Part shown: one piece after another, positions 1 through 51,581 of the stretch
Position numbering within the stretch: position 1 is the first letter of the stretch
How the letters are laid out: each line of letters begins with the position of its first letter
Source of the DNA: a virus
Virus record (IMG/VR): IMGVR_UViG_3300042549_005982
Location: 1 to 54,714 of that record
DNA length: 54,714 bases
Reading direction: 5' to 3' (one strand)
Notes under the pieces: model-generated
The model's database searches: none
Told to the model about the DNA's origin: nothing
Seen by the model: the letters and a program-made list of their open reading frames with translations, nothing else
Made by a program: the position numbers and the translations under genes

Positions 1-198
1 GATAGGCTGGAGCCCAATCGAGGAACGACTCTTGAAGGATGGACTGGTCGGCTGGAGTTATGAGGGGTGCCGTTCGTGCCGATTTCGGCGGGGCGTCCGC
101 CGATGCGCCGGTATGGGGGGTTTTTTGGCCGGTGGTTGCGTCTAAAAGGTCGTCTAGGGGGTTACTACCTTCCACCCCTTCAAGGGCGTCATTGGCCG
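1..198. repeat. Left copy of the terminal overlap (contig closes on itself)
   Basis: The first 198 bases recur at the right end of the window (54517-54714). Bases 72-198 are identical, a run of 127. In bases 1-71 there are four differences, at 17, 26, 62 and 71. All lie in the methyltransferase gene and all are synonymous. The simplest reading is one locus seen twice because the molecule is circular or circularly permuted, with two co-occurring strain variants. Confidence 0.92.
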
Positions 199-760
199 CC
201 GCTGTGGCGCTATGCAAAAGGTTGCTAACCGCGTCCGCCGCGACCCGTTCATCCTCTCTGGATATGAAGTTGTAGGCGCGGGTCGCAGACTCCATCATTC
301 GCACGTTATCGCGATGGAGTTCCTTGGCGACACGGCAGCATCGCTGCACCCACGCGGGGCTATAACCCAGATTGTCCGCGGTCTTCGTGTAGTTCCAGCT
401 ATCGCCGTGTTGCTGGCCCAGCACTTCATGGATCGAAGCCATCGCGAGACATTGATCCTGCCAGCCCAAATCTTTACGCCTCAAATTTTCTTCGAGTTCG
501 ACGACACGCTGTTCGATGGGCGAGAGGTCCGAAAGTAATCGGGCCGGGATGGTTTCGAGGTCTAACTGGCGAGATGCTGTGAAGCGCCGTTCGCCTGCGA
601 TCAATTTGTAAGGTTGGTTTGCGGGGCCAGTTTCGGCCACCAAAATGATCGGCACCAGCACTCCATTCCTCGGAATGCTTTCCAAAAGGTCGTCGATGAT
701 AATTTCTTTTCGCTGGCGTGACCCACGGTCAATCCAGATGTCTTTAAGGGAAATGTCCAT
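1..760 (-). CDS. ParB-methyltransferase fusion, N-terminal part (ParB/HTH), runs off the left end
   Basis: The minus-strand frame opens at an ATG at 758-760 behind an AGGAT ribosome site and stays open to base 1, so the gene is cut by the contig end. Joined through the terminal overlap to 53843-54714 it encodes about 477 residues. The N-terminus is a ParB/Srx-type domain: GERRFTASR near residue 56 and ELEENLRRKDL near residue 90 match the nucleotide-binding boxes of ParB CTPases. A KorB-like helix-turn-helix follows (about residues 120-150, TADNLGYSPAWVQRCCRVAK). A low-complexity linker at about 190-240 leads into the DNA methylase half. ParB domains fused to beta-class DNA methyltransferases are known in phages and mobile elements. 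They probably place methylation at ParB-bound sites, but targets here are unknown. It is the downstream continuation of the recombination operon. Confidence 0.88.
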   Translation of the reverse strand, partial: MDISLKDIWIDRGSRQRKEIIIDDLLESIPRNGVLVPIILVAETGPANQPYKLIAGERRFTASRQLDLETIPARLLSDLSPIEQRVVELEENLRRKDLGWQDQCLAMASIHEVLGQQHGDSWNYTKTADNLGYSPAWVQRCCRVAKELHRDNVRMMESATRAYNFISREDERVAADAVSNLLHSATAAANDALEGVEGSNPLDDLLDATTGQKTPHTGASADAPPKSARTAPLITPADQSILQESFLDWAPAY

Positions 761-780
761 GGTTCATCCTGCAAGGTGGT

Positions 781-801
781 GGGAGGGCGCAAGGCCCTCC
801 C
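781..801 (-). terminator. Perfect 8-bp hairpin between DUF669-like and ParB genes
   Basis: GGGAGGGC, a five-base loop, then GCCCTCCC form a perfect stem just after the stop of the upstream minus-strand gene. No T-tract follows on the minus strand, so it is a weak or rho-assisted terminator, or an RNA-stabilising hairpin. Confidence 0.4.
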
Positions 802-816
802 AGTTGTTGGATGCGA

Positions 817-1251
817 TTACTCGCCCTTCACGCTCTTGATGTTGTTACGCGGCGGATCATCCGGGCGTTCCGGGTTGAAACGCTGCGTGATGTAAGCAAG
901 AACGCTCTGGCCGACAGCCTCCGGGATCAGTTCGTCAAACGTCGAACCAGTCGTCTTGAGGCCAAGGGACTCCAGAAAGTCTTTCAAGCGGAAACGCGCA
1001 TCCGGCGTGAGGTAGAAGTCCGTGGACATCTTGCGAGTCGAAAGGTCGATCTCCGCCAAGTCCTTCGGGTCCACATCATCGCTCGCGGAGTGGAACTTCA
1101 AGCCAAAACGCACGTAAGGCGTCTTGTTCTTGTTGTTATCTCCGTATTCGAACGAAGCGATTGTGCCGTGATAAGTGCCTTCCGGCAGCGCCATCGGCGC
1201 TTTCACATCATCGAGATTTACAGCGAGGAGGTCTTTGAAATTAACAGCCAT
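817..1251 (-). CDS. DUF669-like ssDNA-binding recombination partner
   Basis: This 144-residue protein starts at an ATG with GGAG six bases upstream. The body (LPEGTYHGTIASFEYGDNNK, then VRFGLKFHSA) has the OB-fold-like pattern of DUF669-type phage proteins, which are usually encoded next to a RecA-like annealing ATPase, as here. The likely role is binding single-stranded DNA during phage recombination or replication. The C-terminal part (FNPERPDDPPRNNIKSV) is polar. Unlike several neighbours, it has no acidic phenylalanine tail. Family assignment rests on pattern and gene neighbourhood, not on catalytic residues. Confidence 0.6.
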   Translation of the reverse strand: MAVNFKDLLAVNLDDVKAPMALPEGTYHGTIASFEYGDNNKNKTPYVRFGLKFHSASDDVDPKDLAEIDLSTRKMSTDFYLTPDARFRLKDFLESLGLKTTGSTFDELIPEAVGQSVLAYITQRFNPERPDDPPRNNIKSVKGE

Positions 1252-1306
1252 TTTTTACTCCATAGTGAATAGACCCCGTGAAGGGCCAGTATTAGGACCT
1301 TTGGTC

Positions 1307-2110
1307 CTAATTTCGGACCGCTGCGAAATAGTCTGCTAGACCAGACTCGAGCGGATAAGACGCTTGAACTTTTGAAGGTGCTGTGTTTTTGCACTCAATC
1401 GTTCCTTGAGACGTGGTGAAGATCTGGCGTTTGAGATTTTGCCCGCGACCAGAAGACTGCGCAAGCAAGACCGTGTTGAAGTAACGGCCCACTTTCGGAG
1501 GGAGAGCTTTTCCCAAAGTGTTAGGATAGTAACGCTCCGGGCCACTTTCGTCTCCCATCGGTTTGATGTGGCAGTTGATTATCACGTTGCATTTTACGGA
1601 CTCGTCATACAACATGCGCAACAGGTTCTCGACGAGGACCTGAGCCAAGCCCCAGTCGCTTTGATGAGGATGCTGGCCGAGGCGACCGTTCATTGCCAAA
1701 ATGTAAGACAAAGCTGCGTCGGAAAGCATGGTGAGTGAGTCGATGACGAGAACTGTCTTGCTGTCCCATGTGGTGATCGCACCGAGGCTCGTGTCGCCGT
1801 CTTTCCAATCGCCCAACATGCTTGTCGTGCGCTGCCAAACGCTGGCCTTCGCGGGGATCAACTTGCCGCCCACGTTTTTCATTGGCTCCGTGATGGTCAC
1901 GTAATCCACGTTTGCGATGCTGTCTTTCGCGTAGCGGCCTGATGTCAAAAGGTCGCGCAGCACATCCACGCCGTTGTCGAGATCGAGGATGCGAATTTTG
2001 TAGTTCGCCGCCGCAAGGCTCGCAAGTGCGCCGGTCTTGCCTGATCCCGAGTCGCCCACGAACAACAGCTTTGTCGTGTCTGCGGAGTGATGGTCTTTAA
2101 GGGATGGCAT
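1307..2110 (-). CDS. Sak4-like RecA/AAA ATPase (single-strand annealing)
   Basis: This is a 267-residue RecA-fold NTPase. The Walker A motif is GDSGSGKT at residues 19-26 and a Walker B-type strand TVLVIDSLTML lies near residue 120. NVIINCHIKPMGDE near 175 resembles the sensor strand of phage AAA_24/Sak4 proteins. Sak4 ATPases promote annealing of single strands and occur beside an SSB-like gene and a Cas4/RecB-like nuclease, which is the arrangement seen here. The start ATG overlaps the stop of the preceding small gene (TAATG), so translation is coupled. The Walker motif makes ATPase function secure; the annealing role is inferred from family and context. Confidence 0.75.
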   Translation of the reverse strand: MPSLKDHHSADTTKLLFVGDSGSGKTGALASLAAANYKIRILDLDNGVDVLRDLLTSGRYAKDSIANVDYVTITEPMKNVGGKLIPAKASVWQRTTSMLGDWKDGDTSLGAITTWDSKTVLVIDSLTMLSDAALSYILAMNGRLGQHPHQSDWGLAQVLVENLLRMLYDESVKCNVIINCHIKPMGDESGPERYYPNTLGKALPPKVGRYFNTVLLAQSSGRGQNLKRQIFTTSQGTIECKNTAPSKVQASYPLESGLADYFAAVRN

Positions 2111-2262
2111 TATTGCATCTCCGCTTTAATAAGAAGCAAAAGGATAAGTTCAGCAGTTGCTTTGTTTTCGCACTCAGCAATTTTGCGATAAACGCCATCT
2201 CGATCTGCTTTGATGATGCAGAAAGTTGTGCCTTCTTCTATGTAAATTGCGTAAGAGGTCAT
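2110..2262 (-). CDS. Small hypothetical protein (50 aa)
   Basis: A 50-residue frame begins at an ATG overlapping the previous stop (ATGA) and ends in a TAATG overlap with the Sak4-like gene. The sequence MTSYAIYIEEGTTFC... ends in a leucine-rich helix (ATAELILLLLIKAE). Coupled overlaps at both ends support translation. I recognise no family; it could be a small regulator or partner of the recombination enzymes on either side. Confidence 0.6.
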   Translation of the reverse strand: MTSYAIYIEEGTTFCIIKADRDGVYRKIAECENKATAELILLLLIKAEMQ

Positions 2263-2408
2263 GTCATGCTCCGTTGTAGTGCGACTGATATTTGTTTTGC
2301 CAAAAGTTCGTGCGGCGTTGTGGCGACTGCGATCCAGGTTTGTGATTTACGGTCGAAGACGATGATGATGTAACCGTCGTCTGAGTGGCGTACGATGTGG
2401 ACGCTCAT
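2259..2408 (-). CDS. Small hypothetical protein (49 aa)
   Basis: A 49-residue frame whose ATG overlaps the stop of the PD-(D/E)XK nuclease gene (ATGA) and whose stop overlaps the next start in the same way. It reads MSVHIVRHSDDGYIIIVFDR, then an amphipathic C-terminal helix. The coupling on both sides argues that it is a real gene in the recombination operon. Its function is unknown. Confidence 0.6.
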   Translation of the reverse strand: MSVHIVRHSDDGYIIIVFDRKSQTWIAVATTPHELLAKQISVALQRSMT

Positions 2409-3349
2409 ATGTCACCACGAACCTTCAAGGGGTCCCAAATTCTGCGCGTGAAATCAGCGCGAAGCCACTCGTGACGCACGGATGGGGGAAGGCCGCAGAT
2501 TTTGCGGAACGGGCAACCGCCATACATGCCGCAGGCTTTGTCGTTCATCGGCCAATAGTTTTGTGCAGCGTAAAGTTCTGCGGTCGCGATGTATTGGCCG
2601 AGGTCGAAATACCATTCTTCTAACCCAGACTCCGTGCGTGGAACGACGCCACGCAAGAAACGTGTGAAGGTCTGCGCGATCTGCGCACCGTCCACGATGA
2701 TGCCTTCGATCTGCACGTTGTAAACGATCTTGCCAGCGATGGCGTAAAGCGACATCTGGTTGTCGGGTGTGAACTTGTCGAAGAACGACTGGTTGATTGT
2801 GGACTTTGTGGTTTTGCGGTCAAGCACGAAGGCTTTGCCATTAAGCGTGGCGAGACGATCAAGATGCCCGCAGAGCAAAATACTTTCGCCTTGGCGTGAC
2901 GTGTAGCCGCTGTCGAAGCGGAACGAAAGTTCGACCGCAGGCTTGCCATTCGCGAGGCGCACAGTTTCAATCGGATCGTCTTTGAACTGATCGAGATACC
3001 AAACGATGCTGCGCAGAAGCGTCAGGCGGTTTTTGTTCGGGTCGTCTGAAATCCACGGACGATTTTTTTGCTCGTCCCAAGTGATTGTCAACACATATCT
3101 AACCACTTCACGCAGCGCTTCGTCATAACCCATGCCGCCGAAGCGCAGATGATCGTATTGTTCAAGCGCGGAGTGAAAGTGAAGGCCGAAAGTTAGGTGG
3201 ACGGAGATTTCTCTCGGCTGCCATCCCTCAAGAATGGAAAGCTGGTAATAGCGTGGGCACGTTTTGAAAGCGCCAATCGAGGTGCTGTCCCACGCAAATT
3301 GAAAGCGCGGAGTGATTAGCGAAAGTGAGTTGTTTACGACTTCTGACAT
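2405..3349 (-). CDS. PD-(D/E)XK nuclease, RecB/Cas4-like
   Basis: With the ATG at 3349 (AGGGA seven bases upstream) the product has 314 residues; a GTG at 3388 would add 13. After an N-terminal segment with a PRYYQLSILEGW motif, typical of RecB/Cas4-family nucleases, the active-site strand reads FVLDRKTTKS (Asp...Lys), followed by QMSLYAIAGKIV. The C-terminus has cysteines (CGMYGGCPFRKICG) that could bind an iron-sulfur cluster as in Cas4 and AddB. The probable role is 5'-end resection feeding the Sak4/DUF669 annealing pair downstream in the same operon. Nuclease assignment is strong; polarity of action is not visible. Confidence 0.78.
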   Translation of the reverse strand: MSEVVNNSLSLITPRFQFAWDSTSIGAFKTCPRYYQLSILEGWQPREISVHLTFGLHFHSALEQYDHLRFGGMGYDEALREVVRYVLTITWDEQKNRPWISDDPNKNRLTLLRSIVWYLDQFKDDPIETVRLANGKPAVELSFRFDSGYTSRQGESILLCGHLDRLATLNGKAFVLDRKTTKSTINQSFFDKFTPDNQMSLYAIAGKIVYNVQIEGIIVDGAQIAQTFTRFLRGVVPRTESGLEEWYFDLGQYIATAELYAAQNYWPMNDKACGMYGGCPFRKICGLPPSVRHEWLRADFTRRIWDPLKVRGDI

Positions 3350-3365
3350 GGGGCGTCCCTGTCTG

Positions 3366-3569
3366 TTAGGATTTGCGAGTGTCTGCACCGATCTGAACCA
3401 TGCGATAACCGTTCATCAGCATCGCTTGAATGTTGTCGTGATGTCCTCTCAAAAACATGGTGTGTGCGATGAGACGCTCGATCTTTTCACTTGCCTCATC
3501 CCCGAGCCATGTTGATGCCTGCTGCCGAATGTCCTGCACGAGTTGCTCAAGTTCTTCTTTGGTCAGCAT
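3366..3569 (-). CDS. Small helical hypothetical protein (67 aa)
   Basis: A 67-residue protein starts at an ATG preceded by AAGGTG. It is predicted helical and starts MLTKEELEQLVQDIRQQAS, with no recognisable catalytic motif. It sits between the nuclease and a run of small proteins with close spacing, consistent with one transcript. I do not recognise the family. Confidence 0.6.
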   Translation of the reverse strand: MLTKEELEQLVQDIRQQASTWLGDEASEKIERLIAHTMFLRGHHDNIQAMLMNGYRMVQIGADTRKS

Positions 3570-3577
3570 GGGGCACC

Positions 3578-3874
3578 TTAAAAGTTTAAGTCGATGTCTT
3601 TTAGAAGTTCGTCTGCGGAAAGGATCGGGCCTTTCTGGCGAGGCGCTTTTTTGGGCTTTGGTGCTGCTTCCTGTGCGGCAAACTTTTCCCGTTGCGCTCT
3701 CAAATAGTCGATGATCCTATCCGCCTCTGCGTCCGTGATCTGCGGGGCGCGGTTCATCAATTCTTCGAGGCTTGCAGGGGACGCCTCTTCTAAAATCTTT
3801 TCCCCGATATGCTCGGCATTAGCCGTCGTCGATGAGGGCTGTGATGCTGGGGTCGAAGGCGACTGACTTTGCAT
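3578..3874 (-). CDS. Hypothetical protein with acidic-hydrophobic C-terminal tail (98 aa)
   Basis: This 98-residue protein starts inside the end of the preceding gene (56-base overlap) behind a GAGG site. A Ser/Thr/Pro-rich N-terminus is followed by a helical segment (ADRIIDYLRAQREKFAAQ), a basic stretch (PKPKKAPRQK) and the ending SADELLKDIDLNF. That ending resembles tails on several other proteins of this region (DLSDLF, DLLSDLF). The layout of basic linker plus acidic-aromatic tail suggests a docking protein, but function is unknown. Confidence 0.6.
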   Translation of the reverse strand: MQSQSPSTPASQPSSTTANAEHIGEKILEEASPASLEELMNRAPQITDAEADRIIDYLRAQREKFAAQEAAPKPKKAPRQKGPILSADELLKDIDLNF

Positions 3875-4046
3875 GGGCTTTCCTCTTTATTTGCTGCAGA
3901 TACGCATGGATGATGAGTCGAAGAGCCTTGGACCTGCCGACCGTCCGAATGCCTTCGCGGCAAAAAAGCTGGTCGATTTCTTCCAGGTCCTTGGTGAAAA
4001 TGTGGAAGTGGATTTTTGTCGTGTCCTCAGAAAGCCGCGCGGCCAT
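3819..4046 (-). CDS. Ribbon-helix-helix-like small DNA-binding protein (75 aa)
   Basis: A 75-residue protein with an AGGAGA site eight bases before its ATG. TKIHFHIFTKDLEEIDQLF followed by GRSKALRLIIHAYLQQI fits the strand-helix-helix pattern of Arc/MetJ-type ribbon-helix-helix repressors. The GRS.A.R.II.. element is typical of the second helix region. It is therefore a candidate transcription regulator of the early region. Its end overlaps the next gene by 56 bases in another frame, which is unusual even here. Confidence 0.5.
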   Translation of the reverse strand: MAARLSEDTTKIHFHIFTKDLEEIDQLFCREGIRTVGRSKALRLIIHAYLQQIKRKAHAKSVAFDPSITALIDDG

Positions 4047-4047
4047 T

Positions 4048-4344
4048 TTAGTCGTCTCCTAACAAGTCGGCTAAGTTGTAAAGGGGGCCGTCTCCCTGTG
4101 GGTTTTGTTTAAGGGCTTCGCCCTGCGGGGGCGTGGACTGCACTTGCGGTTTGTCGGTTTTGACTATCCAAATATGTGTCGGAGAAGTGGGGGATCGGGA
4201 GATTTGAAGAATGTCGAGGTCAGGGTCTTTTCGTTTTGCTGCGTAAAGGCGCTGAAGTGACATCTGGTAATTGCCCAGAAGTTCGACTTCAATTCCGTAG
4301 TCGGAATGATAAGCCTCGTAGAGCAATTCCATTTCTTTCGACAT
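4048..4344 (-). CDS. Hypothetical protein ending in DLLGDD (98 aa)
   Basis: This 98-residue protein has an N-terminal mixed alpha/beta part, a proline/glutamine-rich linker and the ending YNLADLLGDD. The tail resembles LNDLLGDF on the protein at 7639-7998 and belongs to the recurring acidic-hydrophobic C-termini of this genome. Its stop and the following ATG are one base apart, so translation is likely coupled. No enzymatic motif is seen. Confidence 0.6.
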   Translation of the reverse strand: MSKEMELLYEAYHSDYGIEVELLGNYQMSLQRLYAAKRKDPDLDILQISRSPTSPTHIWIVKTDKPQVQSTPPQGEALKQNPQGDGPLYNLADLLGDD

Positions 4345-4363
4345 TGCACCTTTTACCTTTTGG

Positions 4364-4393
4364 CAAAAAGAAAGCGGGGGCAGACCCCCCGCT
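4364..4393 (-). terminator. Rho-independent terminator after the 157-aa early gene
   Basis: On the minus strand AGCGGGGG, a five-base loop and CCCCCGCT form an 8-bp GC stem followed by TTTCTTTTT. This is a standard intrinsic terminator placed directly downstream of the gene at 4485-4958. Confidence 0.8.
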
Positions 4394-4484
4394 CGCCAGT
4401 AGTTTCAGAGGTCCATCGTCTGGCTGACGGACAAGCGGGGAAGGGAGGAAACGAAAACCCCGCTATTCATGCAACGCGCAGGTA

Positions 4485-4958
4485 TTAGAAAAGGTCCGAA
4501 AGCAGGTCGCCAGCAATCTGGCGGGAAGAATTGACACGACGCTCGGCTTCCTCGCGGATTTCCGGCTTGTGCTGGAGAACCTTCGCGACGTATTCGGAAA
4601 TCTGCTCGGCGGAATAGTCCGAAGGATTGCCGCCCTTTTTGCGGATAGCCGCGAGAACCTGCTCCTTGGCGATCTTGTTCGCCTCTTTGGCGACCGGATC
4701 AGCGGCGGCTTTCGGGGCGCGGACAGTGAACGAATAGGCGTCAGCATACGCCTGAAACTCTTTCGACAGGGCCGTGGCGTCAATCTCACCAGCTTCCGCG
4801 AGCTTCTTAATCTTGGCGATCAGCGAGGTCCGCACGTTGTCCGCGAGGACATGGTTCAGCTTGTCCGCTTCGAGCGCGGTCAGCACATGGCCTTCAGCGT
4901 AGGGCTGCGCGACGGAGACGTTGACGCCATGCGGCAGCTTGAGAGCACGATTTGACAT
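4485..4958 (-). CDS. Helical early protein with DLLSDLF tail (157 aa)
   Basis: This protein starts at an ATG with AAGGAA nine bases upstream. It opens with ALKLPHGVNVSVAQPYAEGH, a signature I associate with an uncharacterised phage family. A long helical Lys/Ala/Glu-rich body follows (AADPVAKEANKIAKEQVLAA) and then the tail QIAGDLLSDLF. It is a transcription unit of its own: a 150-base leader lies upstream and an intrinsic terminator downstream, so it is probably expressed strongly and separately. The acidic phenylalanine-ending tail recalls single-stranded DNA-binding proteins such as E. coli SSB and T7 gp2.5, but no OB fold is evident. Function unknown. Confidence 0.65.
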   Translation of the reverse strand: MSNRALKLPHGVNVSVAQPYAEGHVLTALEADKLNHVLADNVRTSLIAKIKKLAEAGEIDATALSKEFQAYADAYSFTVRAPKAAADPVAKEANKIAKEQVLAAIRKKGGNPSDYSAEQISEYVAKVLQHKPEIREEAERRVNSSRQIAGDLLSDLF

Positions 4959-5109
4959 TTACTGGTTCCTTAAATTTTAGGATTGTGGGGGATGCCCCTT
5001 TGACGGTTTAAGGTGCCATAAGGTTTGACCCATTGCAACTAAAAAGTCATGCACTGGGCAAAAAACTTAGGGCCATTTCATACCGTCTAGCAAAGGGGCC
5101 TAATCCCCG
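4959..5109 (-). promoter_or_regulatory. Leader/promoter region of the 157-aa gene with variant TGGGYYTAA motifs
   Basis: The 150 non-coding bases contain GGGGCCTAA (5095-5103) and GGTTTAAGG (5005-5013, directly after TTGAC). These are one- or two-base variants of the TGGGYYTAA motif repeated in the 15.4-17.6 kb control region. No clean -35/-10 pair is evident on the minus strand, so the promoter itself is not placed. Confidence 0.45.
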
Positions 5110-5652
5110 TCACCACCCGTGCCAGCCGCACAGCGCAATCAGCCTTCCGGGCTTTTTAACTTTCCATTTCGGGGCGGCCTTCTGGGCCTCAGTTAAAACA
5201 TTGGGCTTGGGTGCAGGACGCTTCGGCTCCGCCTGTCGGCCCATTTCCTGACGAGCGAGTGCGGCCTTTGCAGCGGACGCTCTTGTTGCCTTAACTTGTG
5301 CTTCGCGTTTTTGCCGCAGTCGATTGGCTTTTTGTTCTTCGGTGAGCACAGGTTTGTTTTTGGCGCGTCTCGCCCGCGCAAGTTCAAGTGTGCGTTCGCG
5401 AAATTCTGGATCATTTGTGTAGCGTTCCTTTGTGCGAGCTGCGCGTTGTTCTTTGTGTTCGCGGTTCCAACGTCGATTGATTTCTTTTCGTCGCTCGGCG
5501 CTTGCCGCTTTCTTTTCTTCGCGAAGGCGCTCAAGTTCCGCGAGGGTTTCTGGCGGAAGGTCGAGTCCTTTTTTGCGTAAGCGGTAACGAGCGGAATGTA
5601 ATCGCGCTTTCTCGCGGTTTTCCTCTCGCCACGATTTTTTATCGAAGGCCAT
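5110..5652 (-). CDS. Arg/Lys-rich hypothetical protein (180 aa)
   Basis: The ATG at 5652 has AAGGAG seven bases upstream, which decides the start over an upstream in-frame ATG. The 180-residue product is extremely charged and helical (SWREENREKARLHSARYRLR, NRRWNREHKEQRAARTKERY), with many Arg/Lys repeats and an odd aromatic end (CGWHGW). Similar basic N-terminal segments occur in phage HNH and recombination-endonuclease VII-type proteins, but I see no His-Asn-His or zinc-cysteine core. Nucleic-acid binding is likely; an enzymatic role is not supported. Confidence 0.6.
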   Translation of the reverse strand: MAFDKKSWREENREKARLHSARYRLRKKGLDLPPETLAELERLREEKKAASAERRKEINRRWNREHKEQRAARTKERYTNDPEFRERTLELARARRAKNKPVLTEEQKANRLRQKREAQVKATRASAAKAALARQEMGRQAEPKRPAPKPNVLTEAQKAAPKWKVKKPGRLIALCGWHGW

Positions 5653-5818
5653 GGAATAACTCCTTTGGAACGCAGGCGAAACCGATCTTATAACCAAGTC
5701 CGCCTTGCTCCGACACAACTTTTCCTGCGTTGTCACACGCTTCTTTTGATACAAATTCATGAGTGGTCGTGGCAACATTCGCACCGACGAACCAGATTAT
5801 CAAAACCCATGCAGGCAT
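5639..5818 (-). CDS. Small membrane or exported protein (59 aa)
   Basis: The N-terminus MPAWVLIIWFVGANVATTT is a hydrophobic segment that could be a signal anchor. The remainder has two cysteines and ends KELFHGLR. The ATG at 5818 has GGAG nine bases upstream; an ATG at 5833 would add five residues. It overlaps the next gene by 14 bases. No family is recognised; it likely acts at the cell envelope. Confidence 0.55.
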   Translation of the reverse strand: MPAWVLIIWFVGANVATTTHEFVSKEACDNAGKVVSEQGGLGYKIGFACVPKELFHGLR

Positions 5819-5819
5819 G

Positions 5820-6233
5820 TCATTCATCTCCATCAGGTTCGAGTGATGCGTCGTGGGAAAGGGCTTGATAGGCTCGTTTCACGCGAACGCGGTTGAGGAT
5901 GTTCGCGACGCTGCCCGGTTCGACGCCGACAGCTTCTGCAACTTGCTTTCGAGTCTTGCCGTCGTTCACAAGTTTTTCCACGAGCAATTCGCGATCAGTA
6001 ATAGGTAAAGCCTGGACTTCTTTCACCCAATGCGCGCTGTGTGATGGGTTCTCGATGTGCGGGACTGCTTCAGGAGATTTGTATTTATGGTAGAAATCTG
6101 TTCCTTCACCCTCGAGCCATTTCAAGCGTGGGATGGAAAGAAGCATGTGGCGCTGTGTGCTTCCCGCAGCGACACCTTCCGATTTGAGCCCCGTGACGAC
6201 CGGGACATATCTGCTAACCTTCTCGATCTTCAT
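5820..6233 (-). CDS. Helix-turn-helix protein (137 aa)
   Basis: The C-terminal third has a clear helix-turn-helix (ELLVEKLVNDGKTRKQVAEA, then VGVEPGSVANILNRVRVKRA), with the R-K-Q-V-A and S-V-A-N-I-L pattern of homeodomain/Trp-repressor-like DNA-binding domains. The first 80 residues are unrelated to anything I recognise. It is a candidate early transcription regulator. It overlaps the upstream gene by 20 bases. Confidence 0.6.
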   Translation of the reverse strand: MKIEKVSRYVPVVTGLKSEGVAAGSTQRHMLLSIPRLKWLEGEGTDFYHKYKSPEAVPHIENPSHSAHWVKEVQALPITDRELLVEKLVNDGKTRKQVAEAVGVEPGSVANILNRVRVKRAYQALSHDASLEPDGDE

Positions 6234-6447
6234 CTTTCAAGGCTTTCGTTGCGTAAAGGACTGGAAGGGGTTCGATGAGAATAAGGTTGGGTTGGAGAGG
6301 AAGTTTGTCACCTTCCCAATAGGTGGATAAATCTGCGAAAGGTTTGAGTGCGGATTTAAGTTCCGCGATGCAGACGTCGCGCTTTGCTATGGTCGCGTTC
6401 GCTAATTTTTGAAGTTCCATGATAATTTCGGTTTGGTCGTCACTCAT
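6214..6447 (-). CDS. Small phage protein with LKPFAD motif (77 aa)
   Basis: The LKSALKPFADLSTYW segment is typical of a large group of small phage proteins of unknown role (AL.PFA..). A neighbour at 6832-7059 has LMEALKPFSDAWDE, so the two are probably distant paralogues. The start overlaps the upstream stop as ATGA, and the ribosome site (GGGGATAAGGA) is embedded in the C-terminal codons of the upstream gene. Confidence 0.6.
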   Translation of the reverse strand: MSDDQTEIIMELQKLANATIAKRDVCIAELKSALKPFADLSTYWEGDKLPLQPNLILIEPLPVLYATKALKDEDREG

Positions 6448-6635
6448 TCCTTATCTCCCCTATAAGCGGCGCGGGCAGAACCCATCCACGGTTTAGAAAT
6501 TGCCTTTTTCAGTTCTTCGTTCTCGGCTTCAAGTTCCGCGATGCGGGCGCGTAGCGCCAGCGTTTCATCAGCGCGGATTTCATGAACCGCTTGGTGTTCG
6601 GCCATCAAAGGCGGCCCGTTCCCAACCCCACTCAT
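6444..6635 (-). CDS. Small coiled-coil protein (63 aa)
   Basis: The ATG at 6635 overlaps the upstream stop (ATGA) and is served by GGGGGAGAAAG, which encodes the end of the upstream protein. The body RARIAELEAENEELKKAI is a heptad coiled coil, and the end reads AAYRGDKE. The ending is shared with the next two genes upstream because it contains the next gene's ribosome-binding site. Confidence 0.55.
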   Translation of the reverse strand: MSGVGNGPPLMAEHQAVHEIRADETLALRARIAELEAENEELKKAISKPWMGSARAAYRGDKE

Positions 6636-6835
6636 TCTTTCTCCCCCAGATAAGCGGCGCTCCACTGATTCAAACAATCCATCAAATGCTCTAGGTCAAT
6701 ATTAGTGTGCTCATTCCCGCTGCAATTATAAGCGCGGATTACAATTCTGCCTTTATAAAGCCAAACCTCTACAGGTCCGCCTTCGCCAAGTTCATTGACG
6801 GAATATAATTGAGAAATCTTTGTGTCAGTTGTCAT
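6632..6835 (-). CDS. Small hypothetical protein (67 aa)
   Basis: The sequence is beta-rich (GGPVEVWLYKGRIVIRAYNC) followed by a helix and the ending WSAAYLGEKE. Start and stop both overlap neighbours in ATGA fashion. No family is recognised. Confidence 0.55.
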   Translation of the reverse strand: MTTDTKISQLYSVNELGEGGPVEVWLYKGRIVIRAYNCSGNEHTNIDLEHLMDCLNQWSAAYLGEKE

Positions 6836-7059
6836 AGTTTATTCTCTCCCAGATAAGCGGCGCGGGCGGCGCGGAGGTCGTCTATATTAATCTGCCACCG
6901 CCATGTTTCTTTCTCATCCCATGCGTCAGAAAATGGCTTTAGCGCCTCCATCAATTTCTCAATCACGTCGGCTGCGTCGCAAAATTCGTCGCGCTTACTG
7001 ATGATTGCGAAAGCCCGTAGCTTCTCACACAAGTCGGCATACCGATTATAGTCCATCAT
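6832..7059 (-). CDS. Small phage protein with LKPFSDAW motif (75 aa)
   Basis: The product has the EALKPFSDAWDE element of a common small phage protein group and ends ARAAYLGENKL. The start is one of two adjacent ATGs with only a weak purine tract upstream. The 63 bases upstream of it contain no convincing gene. Confidence 0.55.
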   Translation of the reverse strand: MMDYNRYADLCEKLRAFAIISKRDEFCDAADVIEKLMEALKPFSDAWDEKETWRWQINIDDLRAARAAYLGENKL

Positions 7060-7122
7060 GACGTATCCATACTGCGATTGTAATACCTAACAAGCAAAGC
7101 CACATAGCGACGAGATTATGGG

Positions 7123-7398
7123 TTACGTCTCTGATAGCCTCAACAATGAGCCTAGCCCTTCGTCGTGCGCTTCGATGTAGTTGATGCGCGCTTCAAGTTC
7201 CGCGATGCGGGCGCGGGCTGTCTTGTATTCGCTGTGCATCATGTCAGCTTCTTTACGCAAGTCAGCGATACGCTTCTCTTGGCTACGGATAAGGCTCATC
7301 GCCTGATGACACGCGCCAGCCTCGCCCGTGTAGCCTTTGGCGTTGAGCCAATCTTCGACGTTCACAAGGTCGGGGTAGGTGTTGGTGTGGTCAGTCAT
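7123..7398 (-). CDS. Coiled-coil hypothetical protein (91 aa)
   Basis: The ATG at 7398 overlaps the stop of the upstream gene (ATGA). The N-terminal 35 residues carry a small alpha/beta segment (VNVEDWLNAKGYTGEAGACH). The rest is a long coiled coil (KTARARIAELEARINYIE). This coiled coil resembles that of the 6444-6635 protein, suggesting shared ancestry or assembly. Function unknown. Confidence 0.55.
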   Translation of the reverse strand: MTDHTNTYPDLVNVEDWLNAKGYTGEAGACHQAMSLIRSQEKRIADLRKEADMMHSEYKTARARIAELEARINYIEAHDEGLGSLLRLSET

Positions 7399-7637
7399 TC
7401 TTCGCCTACAAGGTTGGAGGAAGAGCCTGCGTAAGAGCCTTCGGAGTTGTAGTAAGTTGTGTATCCGCCGAGAGAGTTGGCGCTCCCAGCATACTGCCCT
7501 TGTGGCCCGTAAAATGTCGAGTAGCCTGCGATGGTGTTGGCCGATCCGGCTAACTGGCCTTGAGGGCCGTAGAAAGTCGTGTAGCCGTCGCACAGGCCAA
7601 TGCACAAACACAGGATCGAGATTGCATTGCGCGTCAT
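7395..7637 (-). CDS. Exported repeat protein with three 20-residue tandem repeats (80 aa)
   Basis: The N-terminus (MTRNAISILCLCIGLCDG) looks like a signal peptide. It is followed by three tandem units of 20 residues whose core is GY(S/T)T(F/Y)Y...G..AGS: GYTTFYGPQGQLAGSANTIA, GYSTFYGPQGQYAGSANSLG and a diverged third. Tyr/Gly repeat proteins of this kind occur in bacterial envelopes and phages and probably form a short beta-solenoid outside the cytoplasm. The start lies just after the upstream stop (TGACATG). Confidence 0.6.
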   Translation of the reverse strand: MTRNAISILCLCIGLCDGYTTFYGPQGQLAGSANTIAGYSTFYGPQGQYAGSANSLGGYTTYYNSEGSYAGSSSNLVGEE

Positions 7638-7638
7638 G

Positions 7639-7998
7639 TCAGAAGTCTCCGAGTAGATCGTTAAGGTCGAGGGTAGGCGTTGCGCTAGGTGTTGCCCCTT
7701 GGGGCAACGGCACCCATCCAAATTCGCGTTCCGCCACGCCTTCGGGGTCTGCCAACCAGCGTGTCCAGAACGCTGCAAAACAATCCGCACGGATTGTTAG
7801 GACCTTGCGGGTCGAACGGTTGGGGCCGGATGAGAAGAACCCGGAGATTTCGACTTCCGTGCCATCGCCTATCGGCGAGCAGTAAAGGCCGGGGATGATC
7901 GAGAGTCCACCGGGGTTCATGTCGGTGCGGAACGCGGGGAGCCCGGAGATGCGTGGGCGCTCGGGCGCAAGGAAATGTAGAGGAGCAGTGTTTGTCAT
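7639..7998 (-). CDS. Hypothetical protein ending in DLNDLLGDF (119 aa)
   Basis: The ATG at 7998 overlaps the stop of the helicase gene (TGATG), so the two are coupled. The body is mixed beta/alpha with an aromatic segment (CFAAFWTRWLADPEG), then a Pro/Thr-rich linker and the ending LDLNDLLGDF. This is one of the clearest examples of the shared C-terminal tail. Coupling to a helicase and the SSB-like tail suggest a replication or repair accessory protein; no catalytic motif is visible. Confidence 0.62.
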   Translation of the reverse strand: MTNTAPLHFLAPERPRISGLPAFRTDMNPGGLSIIPGLYCSPIGDGTEVEISGFFSSGPNRSTRKVLTIRADCFAAFWTRWLADPEGVAEREFGWVPLPQGATPSATPTLDLNDLLGDF

Positions 7999-9494
7999 CA
8001 CGAAAAATCCTTTAGGTTTGCCAGAATTAAAGTGTGCTTGGTGCGCGTTTCGAGCACGTATTGTAAGTTGTGCTCCTGTTTGATCTCGTCGTCTTTCTTG
8101 GCCCATTTGGAAGGGATGCGCCACGGATCGAGATGCACAACGGTATCCCATTCGAGGCCCTTTGCTTTGTGGCCTGTCGCGAGTGTGACGAGGCCGGAGT
8201 CCTTCGCGAACAAATTGTCAAGTTCAGACACAAGGGCGCGGACTGTGCTGGGCGATCGGTTTTCGATCACCGACACAATACACTCATAACGATCTGTCAC
8301 GGAGTCGATCTTGCTCGCGTCGTCGTTCGCTTCCGCTTTTGATCGTTCGGTTTCAAACCAACTTTCGAGCTTTTGTTTGAAAACGTCGATGGTCGTTGAT
8401 TGATCTGCGGAGAGTTTTTTGCAAAGCGCCGAAAGACCACGGCCAATGTCACGACCGAGCATGTTCACGCCCATGCCTTGGCGCAGCAATTTGAAGGCCA
8501 TGCTTAAAAGCGGCGCGTTGTTTCGACAGAGGATCGCAACGTCGCCTTGCGAAAGGTCTTCGATCTTGCTCCAATCCCACGGTTCGCCTCGCATAAATGT
8601 GTTGACGGAACCTTTCGGGTTGGAAGGCGCTGCACGGTAGTCCGGGGCGTGAATGTGTTGGCGCTCGACCACAGACTGCGGACAGCGGAACGTGGTGTTG
8701 AGCGGGAGTTCGATCCATTCGGATTTGAGGGTTTTGAGGTTGGTCATGCTGTTATGGTCTGCGCCGCGAAAAGCGTAGATGGCTTGGCGGGGATCGCCCA
8801 CAACGATCAATTTACCAGCAGCCACTTTGCGGAGCATTTGGTGATTGAGGGGTGAAAGGTCCTGGGCCTCGTCAACCAGCACAATGTTGAAACGCGGGAA
8901 CGCTCCCGAAAACACGACTGGGAGATAAATTTGGTCGTCGTAAGAAATGCAGCCGTTCATTCCTTCTTCGATGGACGAGATGAGAACCCTGCGCGCAAGT
9001 TTGCGCTCGTCAGCGGTGAGGTTTAGATCAAGTTCGTAGTCAAGTTTTTCCCATGTTTCGGGGGTGTCGGGAACGAGCGATTTGGCATGTTGGAATTGCG
9101 ACGGGACGAGTCCGCGCTGCATCGCCATGACCACAAGTGTGCGGATCGCTGACCATTCCCCTTTGCTTTCGGGAAAAGGTTTGAGCGCGTCAGTTGTGAG
9201 GCGTCCGATTTTGTTCGCGTCGATCAGCATTTTCTTTTTGTTGATCGTAAAAGACCATGCGCGATGGCCGAGGCCGTTCATGGTCATTACGCTGAAGTTT
9301 TTGGGAAAGCGTTTTTCTAACTCTTCCTTAATTTTCTTGTTGAAGGCGAGGGCAAGGGCTGGCTCGGGGGGCAAAGCCTTGGCGAGCATGGTGAGGGTTG
9401 TGGTCTTGCCGGTGCCTGCGAGCGCGTTTACCATGAGCGACTGAGGCTGCGTGGCCGCGTGAATGATGGCGGCTTGTTCGGGAGTTGGTTTCAT
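7998..9494 (-). CDS. UvrD/Rep-like superfamily 1 DNA helicase
   Basis: This 498-residue SF1 helicase has the Q motif PTPEQAAII near the N-terminus, Walker A ALAGTGKTT at 24-32, motif II VLVDEAQDLSPL, motif III GDPRQAIYAFRGAD, motif V LATGHKAKGLEWDTV and a degenerate motif VI (YVLETRTKHT, usually T-R-A-K). It is shorter than cellular UvrD (about 720 residues), with reduced 1B/2B domains, as in many phage helicases. It probably unwinds DNA 3'-5' in replication restart, recombination or repair. The downstream tail protein is translationally coupled. Confidence 0.9.
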   Translation of the reverse strand: MKPTPEQAAIIHAATQPQSLMVNALAGTGKTTTLTMLAKALPPEPALALAFNKKIKEELEKRFPKNFSVMTMNGLGHRAWSFTINKKKMLIDANKIGRLTTDALKPFPESKGEWSAIRTLVVMAMQRGLVPSQFQHAKSLVPDTPETWEKLDYELDLNLTADERKLARRVLISSIEEGMNGCISYDDQIYLPVVFSGAFPRFNIVLVDEAQDLSPLNHQMLRKVAAGKLIVVGDPRQAIYAFRGADHNSMTNLKTLKSEWIELPLNTTFRCPQSVVERQHIHAPDYRAAPSNPKGSVNTFMRGEPWDWSKIEDLSQGDVAILCRNNAPLLSMAFKLLRQGMGVNMLGRDIGRGLSALCKKLSADQSTTIDVFKQKLESWFETERSKAEANDDASKIDSVTDRYECIVSVIENRSPSTVRALVSELDNLFAKDSGLVTLATGHKAKGLEWDTVVHLDPWRIPSKWAKKDDEIKQEHNLQYVLETRTKHTLILANLKDFS

Positions 9495-12794: not shown

Positions 12795-12812
12795 GTTGCC
12801 CGCTAGGGCAAC
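12795..12812 (-). terminator. Hairpin overlapping the stop codon of the glycosylase gene
   Basis: GTTGCCC, four bases, GGGCAAC form a 7-bp stem that includes the TAG stop. On the minus strand CCCCTTT follows. It is a weak terminator or a 3'-end stabilising hairpin. Confidence 0.4.
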
Positions 12813-28854: not shown

Positions 28855-29022
28855 TTGGCGAAGGGCAAAATGACGATGGCTGAGTGGGAACGCTCGCCGA
28901 TGGACAAGAAAAAGGACGCAGCGCTCAAGAAAAAGGGCGTGAAAGAAGGCTCTGCCAAGGACAAGGCGATGGACAAAAAGGGCCTTGCTGCTTACAATGC
29001 CAAGGTCGGCAAGAAGAAATAA
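28855..29022 (+). CDS. Small basic Lys-rich protein, TTG start (55 aa)
   Basis: The TTG eight bases after GGAGG gives a frame continuing AKGKMTMAEWERSPMDKKKD and ending AAYNAKVGKKK. The pattern M...EWE.SP.D...D....KG.kEGS..D...D is common just upstream of podophage terminases. It may be a virion DNA-associated or head protein. The start codon choice rests on the ribosome site; ATGs five codons on are alternatives. Confidence 0.62.
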   Translation: MAKGKMTMAEWERSPMDKKKDAALKKKGVKEGSAKDKAMDKKGLAAYNAKVGKKK

Positions 29023-29045
29023 GCCCACTACGGATTGCGTATAAG

Positions 29046-30410
29046 ATGGACTTAACCGCACAAAATGCAAAAGTGATTGAGTGGCCGGAAAAGCTGCAAT
29101 GCTTGTTCTGGCCGCAGGTCAATGGTTTGCCTGTGCGTTATCGAGTTTTATATGGCGGTCGTGGTGGCGCGAAGTCATGGGGAATTGCGAGGGCACTGGT
29201 GCTGCTTGCGGCAAAAAAGACCCTTCGCATTCTCTGTGCTCGTGAATTACAAAACTCAATTCGTGACTCGGTGCACAGAGTTTTAAGTGACCAGATTGAT
29301 CTTTTAGGACTGCAAGGTTTTTATCAGATCGAGCAGGCAAGAATTTATTGCCCGTCTACAGGCTCGGAATTTTCTTTCGAGGGCATTCGAAACAATGTCA
29401 CGAAGATTAAGTCATATGAAGGTGTGGACATTTGCTGGGTGGAAGAAGCGAATAAAGTCACGAAGACCTCGTGGGACGTGCTTATTCCGACGATCCGTAA
29501 GGAAGGTTCTGAAATCTGGGCTTCGTTTAACCCGGAGCTTGAGAGCGATGATACGTATGTGAGATTTGTGCTGCAGCCGCCGAAGAACGCGATTGTGCAG
29601 AAGATTTCATGGCGCGATAATCCGTGGTTTCCGCAGGTTTTGAAGCAGGAAATGCTCGATCTTAAAGTCCGCGACCGCGATGCGTATTTGCATGTGTGGG
29701 AAGGGGAGTGCCGAAAAAGTCTGGAAGGAGCGGTTTATGCGGACGAACTTCGTGACTGCGCTGAAGAAGGTCGTATCACACACGTTCCTCACCATTCTAG
29801 CTCTGCTGTTAATTTGTATTTCGATCTTGGCCGGTCAGACAGCACGGCAATTATCTTCGAGCAATACGTCGGAATGCAACGACGAGTCGTGGACTTTTAC
29901 GAGAATCGACTCAAAGGGCTAGATCATTACATTCATGTGCTGCGCACACGCAGGGGCTCCACGGGCGAACTTTATGACTATGGTATCTGCTGGTTGCCGC
30001 ATGACGCTCGGGCCAAGACATTAGGTTCGAAGAAGTCGATAGAAGAGCAGATGCGTGATGCGGGTTTTCAGGTTCGGATCGTGCCGAGGTTGAGCAAGTT
30101 CGACGGGATTATTGCGGCGAGAAGCATTTTCCCGACATGCTGGTTTGATGCCGCAAAATGTGAGAAGGGGCTTTTACACGCTCTTCGGCATTATCATTAC
30201 GAAGAAAACCCCGTGACTGAGACGTTCAGCGCGGAACCTGTGCATGATTGGTCGTCTCATGCTGCTGACGCTTTTCGATACATGGCTATTGCCTCGAACG
30301 AAGGCGGATCGGATGGGCGCAGTCGTAAGGTGGCGGGGGCGCTAAAGCGTCAAAGCGGGTTAATGGGTAAGCTGCAGAATTTGGGCGAAAGCCTGGGATG
30401 GATGGGATAA
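29046..30410 (+). CDS. terL: Terminase large subunit (PBSX/Terminase_3 type)
   Basis: The 454-residue packaging motor has Walker A GGRGGAKS at 37-44 and Walker B VDICWVEEAN near 127-136, forming the ATPase. The nuclease domain has YFDLGRSDSTAII with Asp260, and the later WSSHAADAFRYMAI near the C-terminus supplies the last acidic residue. This is the PBSX-family organisation. It translocates DNA through the portal and cuts headful concatemers. The ribosome site is weak, and the stop overlaps one base before the portal ATG, so the two are coupled. Confidence 0.93.
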   Translation: MDLTAQNAKVIEWPEKLQCLFWPQVNGLPVRYRVLYGGRGGAKSWGIARALVLLAAKKTLRILCARELQNSIRDSVHRVLSDQIDLLGLQGFYQIEQARIYCPSTGSEFSFEGIRNNVTKIKSYEGVDICWVEEANKVTKTSWDVLIPTIRKEGSEIWASFNPELESDDTYVRFVLQPPKNAIVQKISWRDNPWFPQVLKQEMLDLKVRDRDAYLHVWEGECRKSLEGAVYADELRDCAEEGRITHVPHHSSSAVNLYFDLGRSDSTAIIFEQYVGMQRRVVDFYENRLKGLDHYIHVLRTRRGSTGELYDYGICWLPHDARAKTLGSKKSIEEQMRDAGFQVRIVPRLSKFDGIIAARSIFPTCWFDAAKCEKGLLHALRHYHYEENPVTETFSAEPVHDWSSHAADAFRYMAIASNEGGSDGRSRKVAGALKRQSGLMGKLQNLGESLGWMG

Positions 30411-48860: not shown

Positions 48861-48889
48861 GTGCGGGGTGGGATTAACCTGCCCCGTGC
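48861..48889. terminator. Convergent-gene hairpin between late and early operons
   Basis: GTGCGGGGTGGG and CCTGCCCCGTGC can pair over 12 positions with two G-U wobbles around ATTAA. The stem includes the stop of the leftward helicase gene. It is likely a bidirectional transcription end, though T-tracts are missing. Confidence 0.5.
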
Positions 48890-50064
48890 ATTTCCCTAGC
48901 CAGCGGAACGTAAGTTTCTGTCCCCGCTTGACGCTGAATAATCCCCGCCTTTTCCATTAAATTCATAATACGCTCCGCTTTTTCGGCGGGAGTGCGCTGT
49001 GATAAAAACCGTAAGATTGTTGCCGCAGCAATCGGGGCGCGGTGCTTCACATAAATGCTGAATAAATACTGAAATGTTTCTTCGATCACTTGATCGTCGG
49101 AGCGCATAATCATGTCGCGGAAGATTTGCGGCATCAATTCTTCAATCTCAAGCAACCAGCCTCTCGCCCGTTCGACATCTTGCATTCGAATAGCGAGTTC
49201 TTCGCCGCGAGCCATGGCGGAAGTCATCGCGAGTTTAACGGCAAAGATTGTTCCTCGACGTGGAATGTAGTTGGCGAGTTTCGGATGATCGGGAACTGGT
49301 CCCCATTTATCTTTGCGCCAGCGCTCCATGTCCGCAATAGCTTTCGCGTCCCATTTCATTTCGCCGTAATAGTCTGCGCAGGCATCTAACTTTTGAACAA
49401 GTTTTTTCTGCTCCGCGTCCATGTTTTTGTATTCGCCAAACAGCGGGACATCGGGCATGGACGAGGAATAGACCATTAAAAGGCGAGAGGTCCAGCCCAT
49501 TGTCCATGCGGCCTCGGGAAGCAACGTCGCCAAGAAACCGGGCTGTGATCCGACGAGCAGCGTGGTCATGGGATTGTGAATTTCAATCGGGTCTTTCAAA
49601 CTGTGGCGGCGTTCCTCACGGTATGTTGCTTTGTGGTCGAACAACTCGTTAATGATGGACAGAAAGTTTAGATCGTGAGCGTTAATAAAAACCCCTAGCT
49701 CTGCGGCGAAGACGAACAGGTGGTTGTAATCGAGGACTCCAGAATTGTTGGGTTTGAGCACTGATCGTGCCGACCGACCCAGCGCGTCAATGTATGAGGC
49801 GGCTGTCACGCTGTTGGGCGCGATGTGAAATTTCTTCGTGGCCTTGAGCAGCGCTTCGGCAGGGTTGATCGCTTGCGATTTGCCGATGCCCGGAGGGGCC
49901 ACGAGCATTGTGTAGAGGTTCGCATATTGCGGACCTGCTTTTGTCATGCACCAAACACGTTTTTCTAACGCGCCAGAAAGCGTGGTGATCGCCGCCCATT
50001 TACGGAAAATTTCTGGTGACGGGCGCTCGTCAGTGAACGCCACAAAAGAATCAACAAAGTCCAC
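48874..50064 (-). CDS. DUF3987-like replicative helicase/ATPase, GTG start
   Basis: GGGAG lies six bases before a GTG. The 396-residue protein has Walker A APPGIGKS at 56-63, followed by VTAASYIDALGRS and FVFAAELGVFINAHD (Walker B region), then TTLLVGSQPGFLATLLPEAA. This is the pattern of DUF3987 primase-helicase C-terminal ATPases. A C-terminal winged-helix-like part (FLSQRTPAEKAERIMNLMEK) follows. There is no TOPRIM/primase domain. It is the probable replicative helicase acting with the family A polymerase encoded just upstream. Confidence 0.75.
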   Translation of the reverse strand: MDFVDSFVAFTDERPSPEIFRKWAAITTLSGALEKRVWCMTKAGPQYANLYTMLVAPPGIGKSQAINPAEALLKATKKFHIAPNSVTAASYIDALGRSARSVLKPNNSGVLDYNHLFVFAAELGVFINAHDLNFLSIINELFDHKATYREERRHSLKDPIEIHNPMTTLLVGSQPGFLATLLPEAAWTMGWTSRLLMVYSSSMPDVPLFGEYKNMDAEQKKLVQKLDACADYYGEMKWDAKAIADMERWRKDKWGPVPDHPKLANYIPRRGTIFAVKLAMTSAMARGEELAIRMQDVERARGWLLEIEELMPQIFRDMIMRSDDQVIEETFQYLFSIYVKHRAPIAAATILRFLSQRTPAEKAERIMNLMEKAGIIQRQAGTETYVPLAREMHGAG

Positions 50065-50099: not shown

Positions 50100-51581
50100 T
50101 TAAAGTTTTTGTGAGAGCAGAGGTGTTCTTCTGCGCTCGTCCTTTTTGTTTTTCCACTTAGCCAAACCATCGGGATTGGAGTCTGGGTCGAAGTTGCCCC
50201 AGTTCCATCCGACTTTCGCTTCGCCGGGGACGACTAACTGATGACCGTCTTTTTCAAATGCGAGATCGAAATGTGAAAGAGCCTCGGAGATGATGTCAAC
50301 TTCGTTAAGGTGTTCGGGGTATTGAAAGTAAAGAGCGTCGTGGACTTGGGCAATTAACTGCACTTGCGGCATGTGTTTCCAAACTCTCCACAAAACCAGG
50401 TTCAGCCTCTCCGCCGTCGCGCTCTGTGGTGAAAACGCAATCGCCTCGCGGAGCGTCGAGTCATCGTTCGCTCGTCCGAAGAACGTGCGCTCTCGTCCGA
50501 AAGGTGTGATGATACGGTTTGAAGTTTGGAGTTGTTGGGCGACCCATCTATGCCATTTTGGTATTCCTGAGAAACGCTCGAAGTATCGGGTTTGGAATTG
50601 TTCGGCGACGACAACGGGGAGTTTGGCATGTCGGGCCATGGTCGGAGGTAATCCGCGATAATTGCTTCCGTGCCCGAGTTTCTTCGCCATGTCGCGGTAG
50701 GTGAGGTGACGGTAGAAGGGAGTGTCTGCGATTTTACGGTCGGCCTTTGGATCGTCTGTCCATCCCAATTCGGGCCAAGCAGTCCTTGCCACAAGAGTGT
50801 GAAGGTCGCCACTATAGCAGGCGTCCAGATAAGACCAATCACCGCAGATGGTGCCTGAAAGCCATCCCACTTCTCTACTTTCTGCCTGTTCCAAATCAAT
50901 CCCGCAGAGTTTGTAACCGGGATCGGCGACAAACATTTTTCGCAGAGATGAAGTAATGTTCTGTAAATTCGTGCCGGTGCCGAAAGCGTTTGTGCTGGAT
51001 GAAAAGCGTCCTGTTTCTGTTCCTGCGACATTGTAAGAAGTCCTCATGCGACCGTCGCTGTCCACTTCCGTGTTGAGCACGGAGAGTTGTTTCACAGCGT
51101 CTCGTATAGCCAGTATGGTTGCCACCATTGGACGGGCGTGAAAGTAGTTGTCGAGTTTTTCAAGAGCCTCTCGGTCCATGGACAATTTGCGCTCCCCCTT
51201 CTTCGAAGTCCAGATTTCGGGGATACGCATGTGTTGAAAGAAAAATTCTTGCAGCATTTTTGGGGAATTGGCTTTGAGGGGCTTGTCCCAAACGGCATAA
51301 GCAAAACGATTGAGCAAACCAGTAAGGCGCTGGATTTCGACAGTAAGCGTGTCAATGCCTTTTTGCCTTTCGTAGCTGTCAATGCGGAAGCCCCGCTGCA
51401 TCATGTCCATAACAGGGGCCTGGAGCGCGCGGGTGAAATTGTAAATGCGGGGCGCAGGGCCGATTGCACGAATAGCGTCGAGCACTTCGTGTGTGATGCA
51501 GCAATCCAGACCGTTGTAAAGCTGTTCGTTTTCTGCGAGCACAATGCCTTCTTGCAGCGTGGAGGTGTCGATGATTGGCAT
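50100..51581 (-). CDS. polA: DNA polymerase, family A, with orphan Exo III motif at its N-terminus
   Basis: The ATG at 51581 overlaps the stop of the preceding small gene (TAATG). The product has 493 residues. Residues 22-26 (YNGLD, in LYNGLDCCITHEVL) match the Exo III motif (Y-x3-D) of 3'-5' exonucleases, yet motifs I and II are absent here and occur in the separate protein at 51916-52971. The polymerase has motif A GIDLEQAESRE (Asp229), O-helix RDMAKKLGHGSNYRG (Arg296, Lys300, His304, Tyr308) and motif C QVHDALYFQ (Asp415). His304 sits where E. coli Pol I has Phe762, and Ala416 replaces the usual Glu of VHDE. Main phage replicase. Confidence 0.9.
   Translation of the reverse strand: MPIIDTSTLQEGIVLAENEQLYNGLDCCITHEVLDAIRAIGPAPRIYNFTRALQAPVMDMMQRGFRIDSYERQKGIDTLTVEIQRLTGLLNRFAYAVWDKPLKANSPKMLQEFFFQHMRIPEIWTSKKGERKLSMDREALEKLDNYFHARPMVATILAIRDAVKQLSVLNTEVDSDGRMRTSYNVAGTETGRFSSSTNAFGTGTNLQNITSSLRKMFVADPGYKLCGIDLEQAESREVGWLSGTICGDWSYLDACYSGDLHTLVARTAWPELGWTDDPKADRKIADTPFYRHLTYRDMAKKLGHGSNYRGLPPTMARHAKLPVVVAEQFQTRYFERFSGIPKWHRWVAQQLQTSNRIITPFGRERTFFGRANDDSTLREAIAFSPQSATAERLNLVLWRVWKHMPQVQLIAQVHDALYFQYPEHLNEVDIISEALSHFDLAFEKDGHQLVVPGEAKVGWNWGNFDPDSNPDGLAKWKNKKDERRRTPLLSQKL

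Follow-up and report, generated by a model that had tools for sequence, protein, structure and literature searches.

The ParB-Methyltransferase Gene at the Ends of the Contig

The window analyzed here, the whole 54,714 nucleotides of the IMG/VR record IMGVR_UViG_3300042549_005982, is the genome of a tailed phage, in which a terminase, a portal protein, a head closure protein, and tail proteins are all encoded. On the minus strand, a gene for a ParB-methyltransferase fusion lies across its two ends. At the left end, a frame of 253 amino acids (2-760, minus strand) runs open off base 1, and at the right end the frame at 53843-54712 (minus strand) is also open, with a GTG at 54691 as its first ATG, GTG, or TTG codon. 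The sequence-only reading had described both frames in this way, and had taken them for the two parts of one gene of about 477 residues in a circular genome that was cut inside the gene.

The ends of the contig bear this out. The two ends share a terminal overlap of exactly 198 bases, in which the left copy (1-198) is identical to the right copy (54517-54714) at 194 of 198 positions, and none of the other overlap lengths compared came near this fit. Because bases 1-198 are the same stretch as 54517-54714, the contig closes on itself. The overlap is inexact, derived from two strain variants, and is not a perfect direct repeat; all four of its mismatches are silent in the gene. The joined gene on the minus strand comprises 1434 bases, or 477 codons and a stop codon, and yields an identical protein of exactly 477 amino acids from either copy of the overlap. 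A frame break was sought at the junction, but the sole stop lies at the end of the gene. In the window, residues 1-253 (the ParB_N domain, the helix-turn-helix, the linker, and the start of the methyltransferase) are encoded at 1-760, and residues 189-477 with the stop codon at 53843-54714, of which 54517-54714 duplicates 1-198.

Eight independent IMG/VR contigs (L001-L008) encode the protein intact and at full length, with 99-100% identity. Contig L001 spans the junction at 99.9%, its positions 1-4066 matching 4066-1 of the window and its positions 3869-8226 matching 54714-50357; thus, it continues from base 54714 to base 199 as had been anticipated, and the 198 bases are present once in the independent contigs that cross the junction. 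Across the same region, L002 and L016 came near the 99.9% of L001, and L003-L008 matched at about 87-98%. The longer related records, of 52-62 kb, are similar in size to the window. An assembly artefact that fused two unrelated genes might be argued from the four mismatches, but the whole gene with the same neighbors occurs in independent contigs, so its probability is negligible, and a chimera was ruled out by L001-L008. The overlap, the unbroken frame, and the whole gene in these contigs therefore confirmed the junction, the reading frame, and the gene itself, and indicated that the split is due only to the cut site in a circular genome. Inexact contig ends can thus conceal a whole gene from routine annotation. 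Eight further contigs (L016, L030, L035, L040, L041, L049, L058, and L065) likewise end within this gene, where strain variation perhaps breaks assemblies.

Domain Organization of the Fusion Protein

All of the elements that had been read from the sequence, namely, ParB motifs, a helix-turn-helix, a flexible linker, and a beta-class methyltransferase with DFPY, were recovered in the joined protein (all coordinates in this section refer to the minus strand). The ParB N-terminal, NTP-binding domain (PF02195) occupies residues 19-93 (482-706) with a Pfam E value of 5.5e-11, above the cut-off, and the TIGR00180 model is passed marginally, with 58.7 bits against a cut-off of 58.45. This half was assigned from sequence matches, which were to Noc, Caulobacter ParB, and Spo0J, and from whole-model Foldseek matches, which were to Noc/ParB. 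Both nucleotide-pocket motifs of the TIGR00180 type, GERR and ENxxR, are present: GERR at residues 56-59 (584-595), aligned to Spo0J/ParB chains, and ENLRRKD at residues 91-97 (470-490). The pocket residues G56, E57, R59, E91, N92, and R95 are invariant in the family; R59, E91, N92, and R95 do not vary over 58 distinct members (R59 in 58/58). The helix-turn-helix (residues 124-146; 323-391) is formed by helices 124-131 and 135-146 of the AlphaFold2 model, with a pLDDT of about 88; Pfam gave no helix-turn-helix match in the window protein, and HTH_3 was matched in only 1 of 50 relatives.

In the model, which has a mean pLDDT of 80.5, both halves are well folded, and between them runs a disordered linker at residues 195-233 (62-178; pLDDT below 50) that varies in length and sequence. 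Residues 200-206 (143-163) of the linker carry the clade-specific motif NPLDDLL. The pattern [ND]PL[DA]DL[LIF] was observed in 29 of 58 relatives, which form the closer clade, and was absent from the more distant clade, while the rest of the linker is variable; a replication protein may dock there. No Pfam match was obtained for the C-terminal dimerization domain of ParB, whose place is occupied by the methyltransferase.

The beta-class DNA methyltransferase domain spans residues 234-477 (53846-54577; PF01555, N6_N4_Mtase, E 1.8e-11). Motif IV precedes motif I, and this order and the fold are as in the beta-class N6/N4 amino DNA methyltransferases. The best fold matches were M.BceJIV (Z 21.2), CcrM (Z 20.9), and M1.HpyAVI (Z 20.9), and the N4-cytosine enzyme of Adineta vaga was nearly equal (Z 20.7). 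Since this half is closest to the N6-adenine enzymes M.BceJIV, CcrM, M1.HpyAVI, and M1.MboII, the predicted model points to adenine N6 rather than cytosine N4 as the probable target. The likeness to CcrM, M.BceJIV, and M1.HpyAVI (Z about 21) is confined to the methylase, where the aligned part is 17-22% identical, and nothing in the match corresponds to the ParB half.

Motif IV reads DFPY (residues 264-267; 54476-54487), and motif I, the SAM pocket, reads DPTCGGG (residues 422-428; 53993-54013); D264, P266, and D422 are invariant. Over the 58 distinct members, the C-D-F-P of motif IV is invariant (DFP in 58/58). However, this set was partly collected with a pattern containing HCDF, and motif IV was therefore recounted on proteins found through the neighboring gene for a uracil-DNA glycosylase (UDG)-family domain fused to an exonuclease, together with three added relatives from named phages or a genome. 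In this recount, 49 of 52 proteins had DFPY or DFPF, two had DPPY, and one had DLPY. Compared with the consensus D/N/S-P-P-Y/F/W, DFPY keeps the first D, the third P, and the Y, and only the second P is replaced. Because DFPY is near-fixed in the family, with few DPPY, DLPY, or DPIY relatives, we concluded that the replaced position is a tolerated family trait and not decay. A dead methylase was ruled out, as strong purifying selection maintains DFPY, which also occurs in a distant Desulfofustis phage protein.

The Gene Occupies a Fixed Place in a Replication Cassette

The fusion gene lies in a replication and recombination cassette encoded on the minus strand. Upstream of it are a PHROG 2698 gene (817-1251), which is a frequent neighbor, a Sak4-like AAA ATPase gene for recombination (1307-2110), and a PD-(D/E)XK exonuclease gene (2405-3388). 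Downstream are a PHROG 6802 gene (53439-53846), the UDG-family domain fused to a 3'-5' exonuclease (51916-52971), DNA polymerase A (50100-51617), and a DUF3987/primase-helicase gene (48874-50064). The ATG of the PHROG 6802 gene overlaps the methyltransferase stop by four bases (ATGA), an arrangement that suggests coupled translation. In the related loci with enough flank, the same order was conserved: PD-(D/E)XK exonuclease, Sak4-like ATPase, usually PHROG 2698, the fusion, UDG-exonuclease, DNA polymerase A, and DUF3987/primase. The terminase (28884-30410) is more than 20 kb away. Neither RNA families nor tRNA genes were found in the window.

The fusion was observed at the same place of the cassette in Microcystis phage Mel-JY34 and Desulfofustis phage LS06-2018-MD01, and, by position and sequence, in Vibrio phage VS-ABTNL-3; in Caulobacter phage Kuura, the cassette lacks the fusion. 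The polymerase of the window is split over 50100-52971 (minus strand) into a UDG-like and 3'-5' exonuclease gene and a separate polymerase A, with about 300 bases between, whereas in Mel-JY34 the UDG-exonuclease and polymerase A form one gene.

Selection and Inheritance of the Fusion

The dN/dS of the whole gene was 0.04-0.08 among close variants and, where computable, about 0.04-0.16 in the two folded parts, compared with 0.29-0.45 in the linker of more diverged relatives. All of the 50 aligned relatives carried both Pfam domains (PF02195 and PF01555). As the first related loci had been found through the fusion itself, a second search was made with an alignment of the UDG-exonuclease, the neighbor on the polymerase side. 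The resulting 68 complete intervals, which include some near-copies, comprise 65 found through this neighbor together with those of Mel-JY34, Kuura, and an Acidobacteria contig; a search of the genome collection gave a single relative, which lies in an Acidobacteria assembly. The fusion was present in 48 of the 68 intervals, and in the other 20 the interval was closed up without it. None of the 68 intervals, the 20 without the fusion included, carried just one half of it, whether ParB or methylase of this family. When presence and absence were mapped on a tree built from 59 distinct sequences of the UDG-exonuclease, 4 changes were required, compared with 14.3 for shuffled labels, which fits an old gene that was lost a few times, the root of the tree being uncertain. 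Thus, the fusion has long been kept and is inherited as one unit.

Silent differences among L001-L008 were scarce in about codons 101-260 and dense on both sides. A hidden DNA element in the linker was considered from the few silent changes there and was rejected, since the low-change stretch spans about codons 101-260, for which recent exchange by recombination fits better.

Comparison with Known ParB-Methyltransferases

The architecture itself is already known in phages. Fusions of the ParB-CTPase fold with an N6_N4 methyltransferase have been documented by Kaljevic et al. (2025, PMC12704722), and these likewise carry PF02195 and PF01555 on one phage-borne chain without ParA; the accessible text describes no replication-cassette family, DFPY clade, or conserved gene order. 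In Paracoccus prophages, 36 ParB-methyltransferases (ParB-Tls locus; PMC6536676), which are also m6A/m4C enzymes with an N-terminal ParB domain, lie upstream of terminase genes. The window gene, by contrast, lies in the replication cassette and does not adjoin the terminase large subunit. M.BceSVII (BCE_0392) of a Bacillus cereus prophage has the same build of a ParB domain and an adenine methyltransferase, a likeness drawn from its published description, but comes from a different host; it was reported as a promiscuous m6A methyltransferase (PMC3526280). When expressed in Escherichia coli, it made m6A and left plasmid DNA unprotected against a panel of restriction enzymes, and a nicking activity was also reported for it (PMC3526280, PMC3459991).

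The Mel-JY34, LS06-2018-MD01, and VS-ABTNL-3 copies agree with the window gene in position, within a replication cassette of like kind, and are annotated as methylase or ParB-like only. The Mel-JY34 and LS06-2018-MD01 copies are about 23-25% identical to the window protein; motif IV is DFPY in the Desulfofustis copy, as in the window, but DPPY in Mel-JY34 and DPIY in the Vibrio copy. To these, the present analysis adds a mostly uncultured phage family in which the gene is locked in a replication cassette, carries DFPY, and is inherited as a unit.

Proposed Function and Alternative Explanations

We proposed, with a probability of about one half, that the protein is a ParB-tethered m6A methylase of low specificity that acts on replicating phage DNA. 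The N-terminal ParB-like NTP-binding domain and the helix-turn-helix would hold the protein on DNA, probably gated by a nucleotide, and the flexible linker would let the beta-class N6-adenine methyltransferase reach nearby DNA with low sequence specificity. The location of the gene inside the replication and recombination cassette makes the phage's own replicating DNA the likely substrate, on which the enzyme would act during replication, and the reported promiscuity of BCE_0392 agrees with low-specificity methylation. ParB-fold proteins bind CTP, ATP, or GTP, which makes CTP binding by the window protein plausible, but 17 of the 28 proteins tested bound none, so the fold does not imply NTP binding, and the ligand is not reliably predicted by sequence or AlphaFold3 (PMC12704722). 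The 20 related cassettes that lack the gene also count against the proposal, as does the failure to find a conserved parS-like palindrome in the window and the related loci.

A stronger version, close to what the sequence-only reading had envisaged, is a nucleotide-gated ParB clamp that loads at one site in the replication region, closes through a methyltransferase dimer, slides, and lays m6A over a stretch of replicating DNA. Because the C-terminal dimerization domain is replaced by the methyltransferase, such a clamp would need another dimer contact, which the methylase could supply, and sliding of ParB-methyltransferases was not shown in the literature examined; we regard this version as unlikely. 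If true, the enzyme would be a methylation writer that spreads by itself and is tied to the replication of the phage. Fusions of ParB with a methyltransferase occur widely among phages, and a worked-out mechanism was found for none. The present family is a clean system: the protein is inherited as a whole, its gene sits at a single fixed position of a replication cassette, and some sister lineages have it and others lack it. It thus allows a direct question, namely, whether the ParB module spreads the methylase along DNA and what effect this has on phage replication.

Several other functions were weighed against the tethered methylase. The retained helix-turn-helix, the position in the replication cassette, and the overlap with the next gene would also suit a site-specific regulator, in which the helix-turn-helix binds one parS-like site at an origin or promoter and the methyltransferase marks it to time replication or transcription. 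However, no recurrent palindrome conserved in relatives was found in the window and the related loci, and this function appears unlikely. An 18-bp palindrome, GTTGCCC-N4-GGGCAAC, occurs exactly twice in the window (7691-7708 and 12795-12812); it was rejected as a parS-like site, with no exact match in 184 loci, and was treated as chance. The nicking reported for BCE_0392 raises the idea that the ParB part is a nickase and that the protein serves replication or packaging by nicking DNA as well as methylating it, but no nuclease motif was identified in the window protein, and the distance of more than 20 kb from the terminase argues against a packaging role, leaving this idea improbable. Only a very slight chance is left that the protein serves true ParABS partition in a plasmid-like prophage: the TIGR00180 score just above the cut-off is in favor of this, but the C-terminal dimerization domain is replaced by the methyltransferase, and a ParA partner was sought without success, there being no ParA family protein in the window and none over the cut-off in 11 related records. 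The absence of ParA disfavors partition, and we treat the protein as a phage-encoded fusion without ParA.

Anti-restriction is a common role of phage methyltransferases. The enzyme could accordingly methylate phage DNA against host restriction, with the ParB part as a mere DNA tether; anti-defence has been suggested for phage ParB-methyltransferases by Kaljevic et al. (PMC12704722), and no second methylase of the same family was found in the window. Genome-wide protection should, however, weaken selection against restriction sites, and strong avoidance was observed instead, which weakens the shield idea. The 6-bp palindromes occurred at 0.38 of expectation, compared with 1.01 for non-palindromic 6-mers; avoidance extended to those having one or two A/T pairs in each half-site (0.32-0.36), and GTAC was observed twice against about 80 expected. 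Avoidance of palindromes is no weaker in loci that carry the gene than in those that lack it (medians 0.61 and 0.70, respectively, uncorrected for kinship). These counts do not decide the matter, since the avoidance could predate the present hosts. We consider protection against restriction a lesser possibility. The two GTAC sites of the window lie at 2390 and 25111, and of 11 related loci, 10 contain none against an expectation of 14-20; this near-absence points to a long history of exposure to a restriction system that cuts GTAC.
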